Source: Hymenobacter aerophilus DSM 13606 (GTDB lineage Bacteria > Bacteroidota > Bacteroidia > Cytophagales > Hymenobacteraceae). From it: DNA of 64,000 bases. Made by a program: the position numbers and the translations under genes. This document shows, piece after piece, positions 4,890 to 63,571 of the stretch. The stretch lies in the NCBI RefSeq assembly GCF_000382225.1, contig NZ_KB907805.1, forward strand, positions 1 through 64,000, given 5' to 3'. A model generated the notes under the pieces. It made no database searches, was not told the DNA's origin, and was given only the letters and a program-made list of their open reading frames with translations. Position 1 is the stretch's first letter. Every line of letters starts with the position of its first letter.

Positions 4890-4925
4890 GAAAGCTATCC
4901 GCTGACGGCTATTAGCTAACAGCTC
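4890..4925. repeat. Single arm of the AGCTnnTAGC-type repeat
   Basis: AGCTATCCGCTGACGGCT followed by ATTAGCTAACAGCT belongs to the same family as the segments inside ispG (about 13760-13885) and at 63458-63571. It lies directly upstream of the leuS start codon. Confidence 0.6.
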
Positions 4926-12696: not shown

Positions 12697-14796
12697 CTAC
12701 CCTCCCATCGGCTCCAGCACCTCCTTCTCTACCCACTTGCCGTCCTCGCGCATCAGGTCAATCAGCTCGTCTACGGCGCGCTCTTCGGGCACCGATTTCT
12801 TGATGACTTCCTGGCCGCGGTAGAGCGCGATTTTGCCCTTGCCCACGCCCACGTAGCCGTAGTCGGCGTCGGCCATTTCGCCGGGGCCGTTCACGATGCA
12901 GCCCATGATGCCGATTTTAACGCCCTTGAGGTGGTCGGTGCGCTGGCGAATCATGGCCGTGGTTTCCTGCAAGTCGAACAGCGTGCGGCCGCAGCTGGGG
13001 CAGCTGATGTACTCGGTTTTACTCATGCGGGTGCGGGCCGCCTGTAGAATGCCGAAGCTGAGCTGGTTGAGGCCGTCGATGTCGCGCAGCAGCGCCTCTT
13101 GGTCGTCGGTGGGCAGCAGGTCGGTGCAGAGCGAGATACCGTCGCCGAGGCCGTCGATGAGCAGGCCGCCGACGTCGGTGGCGGCGTCGAGCTGGGTTTG
13201 GGCGGGGTTGCGCATGGTGTAGACGCGGCGCACCACTGCCGGGCAGGTAACGCCGGCTTCGATGAGGGCAAAAAACGCCTGCCGCAGCTCGGGCATGGCG
13301 TGGGCGTTGGTGGTTTCCAGCACCAGCACCACCCGCCGCTCGGGCCGCAGCCGCGCCAGCAGGTCGGCATCGAGGCTGGCCAGCTCCAGCAGCAGGAAAT
13401 TGAGCTCCGGATGCAGCGGCGCGTCGTCGGCCATGTACGAATCGGGCGTGAGCAGCGGGTAGTGGTCGGCACGGCGGCCGGCATCGAGCCAGGCCGTGTA
13501 GCTCACCACTTCGCGCAGGCCGTTGGGCAGCATGAACGGCGCCGGCCGCTCGCCGGTATAGATGTAGTCGGCGCCCAGGTCGCTCATCTGAAACTTATCC
13601 AGAAACGGCGAGTACAGGTGCCCGGCAGCCCGCAGGTCGGCGTATTCCAGCCGCGGCAGCCGCGACAAATCGGTAATCACCCGCGGCACGTTCAGCCCCC
13701 CGAAATTGAGTACCTCGTGCGTGTCGCGCCGGTGGTACTGGAACGGATTGATGGGGGACTTTGAGCTGTTAGCTAATAGCTGCTGGCTGTCAGCTTCGTC
13801 TTTATTGGAGCTGTTAGCCGTTAGCTGCTGGCTAATAGCATCGTTCAGCGAAGAGCTATCAGCTAACAGCTTTAAGCTGACCGCTTCAATCGGCTTTGCT
13901 TCCTCCGCGCGGTGGGTGTAGCGGTTGATGAGCATACGGGCCACGGGGGCTTCGGCTTCGGGGGCTTCGGTCAGGCTCACGCGCACGGTGTCGCCGAGGC
14001 CGTCTTCGAGCAGTGTACCGATGCCCACGGCGCTTTTGATGCGGCCGTCTTCGGCCTCGCCGGCTTCCGTCACGCCCAGGTGCAGCGGGTAGGGTTGCAG
14101 GCCTTCCTCGTCGAGCTTTTGCACCAGCAGACGGTAAGCCTGCACCATTACCTGGGTGTTGCTGGCCTTCATGCTCAGCACCACGTCGTAGTAGTTCTCC
14201 TCCTCGCAGAGGCGCAAAAACTCCAGCGCCGACTCCACCATGCCCAGCGGCGTATCGCCGTAGCGGCTTAATATTCTATCCGACAGCGAGCCGTGGTTGG
14301 TGCCGATGCGCATGGCCGTGCCGTACTGCTTGCAGATCTGCACCAGCGGCCGGAACCGCTCGCGGATGCGCTCCACCTCGGCCGCGTAGCTGCTGTCGGT
14401 GTATTCGATGACGTCGAACTTCTTTTTGTCGGCGTAGTTTCCGGGGTTCACGCGCACTTTCTCCACAATGCGGGCGGCCAGCTCGGCGGCGTTGGGCGTG
14501 AAGTGGATGTCGGCAATCAGCGGCACCTGGCAGCCGCGGCGGCGCAGCTCCTTCTTGATTTCGAGCAGGTTCTGGGCCTCCTTCACGCTGGGGGCCGTGA
14601 TGCGCACGTACTCGCAGCCGGCCTCCACCATGCGCAGCGTCTGCTCCACCGAGCCCAGCGTGTCCATGGTGTCCACGGTGGTCATGCTCTGCACCCGAAT
14701 CGGGTTCAGGCCGCCCACCGGCAGGTCGCCAATCTTCACCTCGCGGCTCAGGCGGCGCTTGTACTCGGTCAGGCTGGGGCAGTACGTCTTGTTCAT
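12697..14796 (-). CDS. ispG: 4-hydroxy-3-methylbut-2-en-1-yl diphosphate synthase (flavodoxin/ferredoxin)
   Basis: A 699-residue enzyme of the MEP isoprenoid pathway that reductively converts MEcPP to HMBPP with a [4Fe-4S] cluster. The TIM barrel is N-terminal (VGGLNPIRVQSMTTVDT). The C-terminal cluster domain carries CPSC and GCIVNGPGE. The middle insert domain is usual in Bacteroidota. Between PIEA and INPFQYHRR, residues about 305-347 are unusual: Ser/Leu/Asn-rich blocks (LLADSS, QQLTANSS, QQLLANSS) encoded by copies of the AGCTnnTAGC dispersed repeat. The insertion keeps the frame and probably forms a loop. The stop lies 17 bases beyond that of the convergent hicA. Confidence 0.95.
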   Translation of the reverse strand: MNKTYCPSLTEYKRRLSREVKIGDLPVGGLNPIRVQSMTTVDTMDTLGSVEQTLRMVEAGCEYVRITAPSVKEAQNLLEIKKELRRRGCQVPLIADIHFTPNAAELAARIVEKVRVNPGNYADKKKFDVIEYTDSSYAAEVERIRERFRPLVQICKQYGTAMRIGTNHGSLSDRILSRYGDTPLGMVESALEFLRLCEEENYYDVVLSMKASNTQVMVQAYRLLVQKLDEEGLQPYPLHLGVTEAGEAEDGRIKSAVGIGTLLEDGLGDTVRVSLTEAPEAEAPVARMLINRYTHRAEEAKPIEAVSLKLLADSSSLNDAISQQLTANSSNKDEADSQQLLANSSKSPINPFQYHRRDTHEVLNFGGLNVPRVITDLSRLPRLEYADLRAAGHLYSPFLDKFQMSDLGADYIYTGERPAPFMLPNGLREVVSYTAWLDAGRRADHYPLLTPDSYMADDAPLHPELNFLLLELASLDADLLARLRPERRVVLVLETTNAHAMPELRQAFFALIEAGVTCPAVVRRVYTMRNPAQTQLDAATDVGGLLIDGLGDGISLCTDLLPTDDQEALLRDIDGLNQLSFGILQAARTRMSKTEYISCPSCGRTLFDLQETTAMIRQRTDHLKGVKIGIMGCIVNGPGEMADADYGYVGVGKGKIALYRGQEVIKKSVPEERAVDELIDLMREDGKWVEKEVLEPMGG
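13758..13886. repeat. AGCT-type dispersed repeat inside ispG
   Basis: Several AGCTGTTAGC, AGCTATCAGC and GGCTAATAGC units lie in both orientations within the coding frame. The 29-base stretch 13853-13881 matches 63534-63562, in the spacer before accA, at 27 of 29 positions. Confidence 0.85.
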
Positions 14797-14847: not shown

Positions 14848-14857
14848 AGCGGTGAGG

Positions 14858-14940
14858 TTGGGTGATGGGGTGATGAGGTGATGAGGTGATGAGGGAACGG
14901 CACTGTCATCACCTCATCACCTCATCACCCCATCACCCAA
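14858..14940. repeat. Perfect 35-base inverted repeat of GGTGATGA units
   Basis: The arm 14858-14892 is the exact reverse complement of 14906-14940, with a 13-base centre. Each arm is a tandem array of GGTGATGA/GGGTGATG units. It lies between the stop of the 14943-15599 gene and the ispG promoter. Confidence 0.95.
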
Positions 14941-14942
14941 AC

Positions 14943-15599
14943 TCACTCCTTCCCGGCCAGCGAAAACACCTGTTCGAGCGCGTAGGTCTGCACGCCGGGG
15001 GTTTCGTTGAGGGCGGCGTGGCGCATGGCGCGGGCCACGGTGCGGGCATGAATGGGGCGGTAGCTGCGCAGCAGCGGCATGGCGCTGGCCGCCGTAGCCA
15101 GCCACAGGCCCACTTTTTCGGCCGGCCGGCTTTCGGCGCGCGGGCCGGCCAAAATGCCGGGCTGCACAATGCGGATGCGCTGGAAAGGCAGCCGCTTTAC
15201 GTCGCGCTCCAGCTCGCCCTTCATGCGGCTGTAAAAGAGCAGCGCTTCGGCATCGGCCCCGGCCGACGACACCAGCACGTAGGCCGGCACGCCGTTTTCG
15301 GCGGCGGCTTTGGCGGCCTGGTACTGATACTGGTAATCAACCTGATACTGGGCCTGCTGGCTGCCAGCCTGGGCCAGCGTGGTGCCCAGGCTCGAAAACA
15401 GCACGTCGCCGGTCAGCAAATGGCTCCAGGCGCGGGGCTGGTCGAAATCAACCAGATGCTCCTCCAGCCGCGGATTTTGGTAGCCGGTGGGCCGGCGGGT
15501 GAAAACTTTGAGGTGCCGCAGCTGCTCGTCGGCGAGCAGCTGGCGCAGCAGGTAGTCGCCTACCAGGCCGGTGGCCCCAATCAAAAGTGCGGTTTGCAT
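14943..15599 (-). CDS. NAD(P)H-binding oxidoreductase-like protein
   Basis: A 218-residue Rossmann protein starting MQTALLIGATGLVGDYLLRQL, with the GATGLVG dinucleotide loop at 8-14. Further blocks are KVFTRRPTGYQNP, VLFSSLGTTLAQAGS, YVLVSSAGADAEALLFYSRMKGELE (a Y-x-x-x-K spacing within FYSRMK) and RIVQPGILAGPR. It resembles HTATIP2/YbjT-type atypical short-chain dehydrogenases. The substrate is unknown. The stop codon lies two bases from the end of the perfect inverted repeat. Confidence 0.82.
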   Translation of the reverse strand: MQTALLIGATGLVGDYLLRQLLADEQLRHLKVFTRRPTGYQNPRLEEHLVDFDQPRAWSHLLTGDVLFSSLGTTLAQAGSQQAQYQVDYQYQYQAAKAAAENGVPAYVLVSSAGADAEALLFYSRMKGELERDVKRLPFQRIRIVQPGILAGPRAESRPAEKVGLWLATAASAMPLLRSYRPIHARTVARAMRHAALNETPGVQTYALEQVFSLAGKE

Positions 15600-44595: not shown

Positions 44596-45184
44596 TTTTG
44601 AGCTGCAAGCCACAAGCTGCAAGCTGCAAGTCGGTCAGTTGCCATCGATTCTATCAGGTTACTGGTTGCGGCTTATAGCTTGCAGCTTGTGGCTTGTGGC
44701 TTGCAGCTTACTAAGCGGCTGCGGGGTGTACTCGTTCAGCGGGACCAACATCGACCCCACTATCAAAACGATTTCCATTGCCACGTTTGCCAACAATGCC
44801 AGCAACGGACCGGCGTTTTTGTCGCAGCAGTTCACCGAGAGTTTTAAGGACTATTTTCAGCGCAACACCAGCCTCAAGCTCGTGCCGCGCGACGGTGATT
44901 TGCAGTTTGAGGGTCAGCTGATTGCCTACGATTTCGCCCCGGCCGCCATTCAGCAGCAAAACGGCGTCGATCAGGCGGGCGCCAACCAGCTTACCATTCA
45001 GGTGCGGGTGAAATTCACCAATACCAAGGACCCCAAACAGGACTTCGAGCAGACCCTGCAAACTACCCGCTCGTTTCCGGCCACCCGCGACATTGCCAGC
45101 GTCAACAGCGACCAGACGGCGCTGAACGAGCTGTTTCGCAACCTGATTACCGAGGCCTTCAATAAGTCGGTGGCTAACTGGTGA
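44576..45184 (+). CDS. LptE family lipoprotein (LPS assembly)
   Basis: Up to 202 residues. LptE is the outer-membrane lipoprotein partner of LptD in LPS insertion. The body (GVYSFSGTNIDPTIKTISIATFANNA) matches LptE-like proteins of Bacteroidota. The lipobox is LLSGC (Cys 49 if ATG 44576 is used). The ATG gives a 48-residue leader, too long for a lipoprotein. TTG starts at 44639 or 44666 give signal peptides of 27 or 18 residues. Either way, the hydrophobic part (LRLIACSLWLVACSLLSG) is encoded by the right arm of a GCTTGCAGCTTGTGG repeat. The ATG overlaps the activator by 20 bases. Confidence 0.85.
   Translation: MTWNKRNFELQATSCKLQVGQLPSILSGYWLRLIACSLWLVACSLLSGCGVYSFSGTNIDPTIKTISIATFANNASNGPAFLSQQFTESFKDYFQRNTSLKLVPRDGDLQFEGQLIAYDFAPAAIQQQNGVDQAGANQLTIQVRVKFTNTKDPKQDFEQTLQTTRSFPATRDIASVNSDQTALNELFRNLITEAFNKSVANW
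44597..44712. repeat. Mirrored repeat: CAAGCTGCAAGC arms across the lptE start
   Basis: The left arm (GAGCTGCAAGCCACAAGCTGCAAGCTGCAAGTC, about 44600-44633) faces the right arm (TATAGCTTGCAGCTTGTGGCTTGTGGCTTGCAGCTTA, 44675-44711). The right arm is translated as the LptE signal peptide. Confidence 0.85.
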
Positions 45185-63457: not shown

Positions 63458-63571
63458 GTAAGCGGTTAGCTTGTGGCTGATAGCTGTTAGCTTTTTTCGT
63501 CTGACATTAGCTGACAGTACTTCCGCTTCGTGGGAGCTATCAGCTAGCAGCTTTAAGCTAACAGCTTGACA
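63458..63571. repeat. Mirrored repeat: AGCTnnTAGC units before accA
   Basis: Units such as GGTTAGCTTGTGGCTGATAGCTGTTAGC (left) and GAGCTATCAGCTAGCAGCTTTAAGC (right) face each other. The right part matches the segment within ispG at 27 of 29 bases. It fills the spacer between the MBL gene start and the accA stop. Confidence 0.88.

Follow-up and report, generated by a model that had tools for sequence, protein, structure and literature searches.

The barrel/A* linker of IspG as a probable recurrent landing site for different families of dispersed inverted repeats in Hymenobacter

The window analysed here, i.e. the whole stretch of 64,000 nucleotides from Hymenobacter aerophilus DSM 13606, carries the gene ispG on its minus strand (Table 1), which was identified by its matches to TIGR00612 (456 bits, cut-off 280) and to Pfam GcpE (406 bits). 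Between PIEA and PINPFQYHRR the encoded protein contains a Ser/Leu/Asn-rich peptide, at the position where the original prediction had placed a repeat tract, and the corresponding DNA is built from degenerate heptamers AGCTNNY in both orientations (type A). A 40-nt unit is found three times with a spacing of 45 bases, and a pair of inverted 31-nt arms shows 81% complementarity. The AGCTnnTAGC-type units in two orientations, which had been noticed before, were recovered by counting: AGCTNNTAGC is present 14 times in the window compared to 1.7 expected copies (none of 100 shuffles reached 14), and six of these copies sit in 13764-13871. Likewise, the reported agreement with a distant stretch holds, with 13853-13881 and 63534-63562 being identical at 27 of 29 positions. 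The size of the insert had to be corrected, from about 43 residues to an actual gain of 37 (82 residues in this region vs 45 in short-form relatives). The coding frame of the insert is open, and stops occur in four of the six frames. Just upstream of ispG, at 14855-14950, short tandem repeats are arranged as an inverted pair (gtgatgaggtgatgagg ... cctcatcacctcatcacc).

Table 1. Coordinates of ispG, its linker and the repeat elements in the 64-kb window.
Feature	Position	Strand	Remark
ispG (gcpE), three-domain IspG, 699 aa	12697..14796	-	TIGR00612 + PF04551
Repeat-derived linker, residues about 306-349, TIM barrel / A* domain	13750..13881	-	short in 63/110 relatives; low pLDDT
Type A heptamer unit 1, 40 nt	13760..13799	.	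repeat search
Type A heptamer unit 2, 80% identical to unit 1	13805..13844	.	repeat search
Type A heptamer unit 3, 65% identical to unit 1; also within second inverted arm 13846-13876	13850..13889	.	
Type A inverted-repeat element with the 27/29 stretch common to the ispG insert	63476..63566	.	no open frame of 100 aa spans it
Short type A heptamer pair	4908..4924	.	no open frame of 100 aa spans it
Type G heptamer element (AAGCTRC/AGCTTGT), start of LptE-like reading frame	44606..44695	+	

In a 26-sequence alignment, the Ser/Leu/Asn-rich stretch, which lies between residues 303 and 348, falls outside the invariant columns, and conserved residues flank it on both sides. The AlphaFold model made with 26 sequences is of modest quality (mean pLDDT 69.7). 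Residues 307-355 obtained pLDDT values below 50, with ten-residue means of 30-34 over 311-350; this segment follows a helix ending at 299 and precedes a strand starting from 372, and ten further segments of the protein also fall below 50. The basic claim made for this locus, a dispersed repeat in frame within IspG, was borne out: the conserved enzyme is intact on either side, and the insert is, according to this model, predicted to be disordered. The available part of the literature describes a third domain, A*, in IspG of Bacteroidota (PMC10663253), and we ourselves placed the linker at the boundary between the barrel and A*.

Matches to IspG were obtained in 119 of 120 Hymenobacter genomes, and none of the matches listed showed an internal stop. 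We could read 110 linkers (G033, G041, G057, G078, G080, G090, G101, G104 and G108 were left out) and assigned their types by eye. A short linker is present in 63 of them, with a region of 43-45 aa from TEAPE to PFQYHRR as parsed, and the remaining 47 have 9 to 52 additional residues. These long linkers comprise 12 of type A, 11 of type B, five each of types C and D, one A+B hybrid, 11 of type E and two of type F; recognisable dispersed repeats, which belong to four families and occupy one site, make up 34 of the 47. No repeat was recognised in the 11 linkers of type E, which all come from one clade, and the two type F linkers have no assigned family, one of them being heptameric (GAGTTAG-like). 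The equally long, non-repeat linker in relatives that would have spoken for an ancestral insert was found in the 11-genome type E clade and in L052 only.

The nearest named records by IspG, in a comparison that may leave out the window's own record, are H. psychrophilus (type A), H. actinosclerus (type B, CAGTTGT heptamers) and Hymenobacter sp. CCM 8763 (type A). Furthermore, the linkers of H. gummosus and H. jeollabukensis are C-like and that of H. edaphi is B-like. A strain-specific insertion is ruled out by such long linkers in relatives. The likeness to the Rickettsia palindromic elements suggested at the outset stands with regard to behaviour, but an isolated or strain-specific insertion is not supported: long linkers occur in all three of the nearest relatives by IspG, with another family in one of them, and the repeats at this site differ across the genus.

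In the genera Pontibacter, Botryobacter and Adhaeribacter, all 15 records (among 80 loci kept) have a short linker, hence the short form of the IspG linker is most likely the ancestral one. Order-wide, IspG was matched in 147 of 194 genomes, 13 of which are Hymenobacter. Twenty loci of the order were picked by hand, four from the same family and several for a long-looking frame; 17 of them have short linkers, L197 has a moderately long one, and L195 and L196 contain other inverted repeats as judged by eye. The latter two represent two other families of the order and show TCGGAAA-like heptamers and a CCTGCCCGCC...GGCGG palindrome in the IspG linker. One internal stop each was flagged in five matches, namely L362, L380 and G030 (all three AddB-like), G041 (IcmF) and G209 (IspG of another family).

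A tree was built from ispG alone after removal of the linker. On this gene tree, linker presence changed at least 16 times and linker type at least 25 times, 17 of these type changes being among long linkers alone. When types A and B are merged, 21 type changes are counted (11 among long linkers), and 20 (8 among long linkers) when type C is merged as well. Between-species recombination could inflate such counts on a one-gene tree, and switches from A to B could represent divergence, as the two heptamers differ at only two of seven positions in the best rotation (three for A-C and B-C); the closeness of A and B is matched by about 16% of random heptamers. Type D consists of two GC-rich hairpins in inverted orientation and has no evident sequence in common with the heptamer families. 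The long linkers are concentrated in one clade of 55 genomes, which contains 37 of the 47, and in a nine-genome clade (support 95/95) every linker is filled, with types A, B, C, D and F. Sister linkers can be of different type, such as L031 (A) and L032 (B) or L037 (A) and L045 (B), and D as well as C are found beside B. Moreover, gains beside short sisters are seen for L060 (support 87/62) and L042 (99/70).

The type A repeat is abundant in the genome of H. aerophilus. In its 4.25 Mb, AGCTNNYAGCTRNNAGC obtained 294 forward and 289 reverse matches (overlaps counted) vs 0 forward and 0 reverse matches for the same pattern read backwards over the whole genome. A scan for repeat clusters covered 1.259 Mb of this genome (the window and 60 stretches) and revealed 50 type A clusters, 18 of them with at least 60 bp; of these 50 clusters, 40 are situated outside any open frame of 150 aa. 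By eye, a frequent form reads TTTTG-AGCTGTTAGCT..., followed by a centre that often has TTCG...CGAA and by ...AGCTAACAGCT-CAAAA. At four places outside long frames (L185:7469-7640, L299:3456-3619, L321:16768-16890 and L319:11229-11350), a terminator-like GC-rich hairpin lies between type A arms. Families B (CAGTTGT), C (AATTAGT), D (CCCCTCTC...GAGAGGGG) and G (AGCTTGT) were also matched in this genome. In the 64-kb window, no Rfam family reached its gathering score.

A perfect array of at least four AGCTGTT units would have stops in all six frames, because 7 and 3 share no factor. Among the 15 type A clusters of at least 60 bp that were not counted as coding, four of 90 frames are stop-free, two from the element at 63.5 kb and two from cluster L313, which may not be a true A element. 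As judged by eye, the type A inserts in different genes use the same phase and encode a like peptide, LLADSS...ANSS.

In the 1.259-Mb scan, 16 repeat clusters were found inside open frames of at least 150 aa (ten of type A, four of type G and one each of types B and D). Six of them were taken to be real inserts, namely those in IspG, IcmF, a PNKP-like protein, a UvrD-like helicase, an AddB-like PD-(D/E)XK nuclease and a radical SAM protein, with the names IcmF, PNKP and AddB given from domains. One cluster was taken to be the start of the LptE-like frame, eight (L291, L297, L321, two in L328, L307, L315 and L177) were rejected by eye as spurious from their translations, and the remaining one, L293, is a 13-base match. 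At the LptE-like start, the type G heptamers enter the frame of the lipoprotein and apparently encode a part of its signal peptide (LIACSLWLVACSLLSGC). The type A insert of IcmF lies between the B12-binding and MeaB domains and that of the PNKP-like protein between phosphatase and ligase, the AddB-like nuclease of this genome has a type D insert in an interdomain linker, and the radical SAM protein contains a type G insert. In the UvrD-like helicase of this genome (G000), type A is followed by another repeat, KPETNNQ. In addition, a peptide search revealed two tandem type A peptide units (EANSQQLSANSSKENEANSPQLSTNSS) in a fused protein named from its sequence as D-Ala-D-Ala ligase-like (L392, G000:C18:71449-71565).

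Two of these proteins were compared among relatives, using for each the 30 best loci, samples that are biased to relatives of this genome. For IcmF, five loci have type A, three degenerate A, five B, two another heptamer and 15 the native linker, and the native linker was replaced rather than merely lengthened. The association of the IcmF type by shuffling gave a p of 0.0076 (10 plain A/B rows). For the AddB-like protein (29 of the 30 loci, G079 left out), eight loci have D, four A, four B and 13 the native linker, with a p of 0.069 by shuffling (16 rows); H. aerophilus itself has D in this protein, though type A outnumbers the other three repeats in its genome. Repeat presence, with type E and F linkers scored as lacking a repeat, is concordant in 28 of 30 cases between IspG and IcmF, in 27 of 29 between IspG and AddB and in 18 of 18 between IcmF and AddB, numbers which come from best matches to this genome and include relatedness.

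The repeat in the IspG linker tends to be one that is amplified in the same genome. Median numbers of genome matches were 124 for A in genomes with A linkers vs 6 elsewhere (p 1.2e-7), 54.5 vs 5 for B (p 1e-6), 21 vs 2 for C (p 0.009) and 73 vs 6 for D (p 0.003), with relatedness ignored and the A+B hybrid linker entered under both A and B. In the 33 single-type genomes, the mean percentile of the matching family was 0.864 vs 0.638 +/- 0.042 after shuffling, and 0 of 20,000 shuffles were as high, again with relatedness ignored. When independent pairs on the tree were used, on average 4.2, 6.1, 2.0 and 3.8 of 7, 8, 3 and 5 pairs for A, B, C and D went in the same direction and 0.0, 0.1, 0.0 and 0.0 in the opposite one, the remainder showing no difference; sign tests on these pairs reached 0.05 for B only, and the thresholds were set after the counts had been seen. 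Exceptions are G095, with a C linker and no C matches, and G039, with a B linker and five matches. The hybrid linker L077 belongs to G065, a genome in which A (197) and B (217) are both abundant.

Altogether, we consider it probable that short, non-autonomous elements with inverted repeats have landed repeatedly in the barrel/A* linker of IspG, and that this linker turns over with the repeat families of the genome. Such elements would have arms of degenerate heptamers or consist of pairs of GC-rich hairpins, and they would spread through the genome chiefly in intergenic positions, as indicated for type A by its counts and positions. Copies within coding sequence would mostly be retained where a flexible linker joins two domains and where the phase is stop-free, the latter being visible in the sequence, and native linker residues and older inserts would be lost afterwards. 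The repeat in the linker would thereby track whichever family is amplified, in line with the association described above, and its translation product would be a disordered, near-neutral hinge. To judge from the A+B hybrid L077 and the UvrD-like protein, a new element can insert next to an older one that is still in place and is lost only later.

The movement of the elements is presumably transposition-like. Y1 transposases (PF01797) are present in 83 of 120 genomes. Among 30 Y1_Tnp loci fetched, which were searched with four patterns allowing two mismatches, B, C and D repeats occurred in none, and A repeats occurred in two, at distances of 0.5 and 1.4 kb from the domain. In three RAYT loci, which were read over their full length and searched for any repeat, the flanks carry CCCAGGG..CCCTGGG repeats of their own. 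L161, L166 and L170, in which RAYT genes have several CCCAGGGTTGAAACCCTGGGCTAG-like REP copies on both sides, represent RAYT-REP loci in Hymenobacter. RAYT was dropped as the mover of types A-C, because a REP family of their own accompanies the three strong Y1 transposase loci.

One alternative assumes a single filling of the slot, or a small number of fillings, and subsequent overwriting in place by later families through nested insertion and deletion, ectopic recombination or heptamer divergence, without any empty stage. The concentration of 37 long linkers in a single clade and the nine-genome clade that is filled throughout with five types would fit such rewriting, as would the hybrid L077 in a genome rich in both of its families, the succession of type A and KPETNNQ repeats in the UvrD-like protein and the decrease from 17 to 8 long-linker type changes upon merging A, B and C. 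However, type D has no evident sequence similarity to the heptamer families, four of the five D inserts span KPIRPL (or RPIRPL) to PIDPF/PINPF with no visible remnants of another repeat, and gains such as L060 and L042 stand beside short sisters. Hence, we regard rewriting in place as rather unlikely. Similarly doubtful is the broader idea that a fixed set of linkers (IspG, IcmF, AddB and others) represents shared slots, which are rewritten in step by the active repeat family via a site-favouring mechanism or via selection for boundary hairpins; if this were true, core enzymes would record the turnover of repeat families.

Selection for mRNA hairpins, which would slow ribosomes at the domain boundary and aid co-translational folding or Fe-S loading, appears quite improbable. 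The insert mRNAs indeed fold far more strongly than their shuffles (median z of -5.2, -4.6, -5.5 and -12.1 for types A, B, C and D), and the inserts of IspG, IcmF and the PNKP-like protein lie between annotated domains. However, inverted repeats fold anyway, so strong folding is no evidence of function; moreover, the 63 short linkers manage without hairpins, and the 11 type E linkers have no excess RNA structure (median z -0.06). One ancestral insertion followed by vertical divergence could account for the one clade that holds most long linkers, but was rejected as very improbable in view of the gene tree with its at least 16 presence changes, the short outgroups and sister linkers from different families. 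An artefact, i.e. an untranslated, misassembled or spurious frame, is conceivable for an insert known here at the DNA level, but has a similarly minute probability given dozens of separate assemblies, the lack of internal stops among the IspG matches listed for the genus and the NCBIfam and Pfam models that match both sides of the insert.

Returning to the favoured reading of a recurrent landing site, the genus would offer many natural replicates in which different repeat DNA became protein at one place of an essential enzyme. This would open to direct testing the idea that protein linkers arise from selfish DNA, for which Rickettsia and intragenic REPs have been the main arguments until now, and the linkers may preserve a lineage-by-lineage record of repeat family activity. 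In the literature searched, we found no report of repeat insertions in Hymenobacter IspG, IcmF or AddB. In-frame palindromic inserts as such are already known; new, in the sense that no description was found in that literature, is the recurrent turnover of one linker among families, in several genes and in step with the genome repeats.

Several known systems can be compared. MITEs are characterised by terminal inverted repeats that match a resident transposase and by a target-site duplication; inverted arms were seen in the type A elements, and no transposase was matched. Inverted repeats embedded in coding genes are also described, in the accessible part of the report, for Nematomorpha mitochondria (PMC6649704), but those are mitochondrial and have long perfect arms. 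The TAACTGA heptamer repeats are, according to the available sections of MacGregor (2015; PMC4679880), nearly all direct sets, mostly intergenic like type B, and their coding copies are found mainly at the protein periphery. The type B heptamer TCAGTTG is one base off TCAGTTA, the reverse complement of TAACTGA, and the reverse orientation there reads LSVISYQ compared to VVSYQLSV in type B (same sections of PMC4679880). Type B does not consist of tandem TAACTGA units, since its consensus GTCAGTT is off at one position, and works alike; in contrast to that system, the Hymenobacter repeats have inverted arms and are located in interdomain linkers.

The Rickettsia palindromic elements, many of which are found in frame in genes that likely encode functional proteins (excerpts of PMC3733652 and PMC2635572), come closer. 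Type A is also palindromic and genome-dispersed, and elements occur in frame in unrelated genes here, type A in IspG, IcmF and the PNKP-like, UvrD-like and Ddl-like proteins and type D in the AddB-like protein. However, Hymenobacter belongs to another phylum and has several families, and one site is refilled by different families. Intragenic REPs of the GTAG/CGTC superfamilies are, in the portion of PMC3733652 (2013) available, often found in genes of DNA synthesis and repair such as Uvr and recBCD; according to a proposal made there, flexible linkers or loops may take up such REPs neutrally, and the recB genes of two Xanthomonas contain different REPs at about the same site. In contrast, types A-C are heptamer arrays instead of tagged hairpins, and in Hymenobacter many changes at one site, in three genes compared, are tied to the repeat content of the genome.
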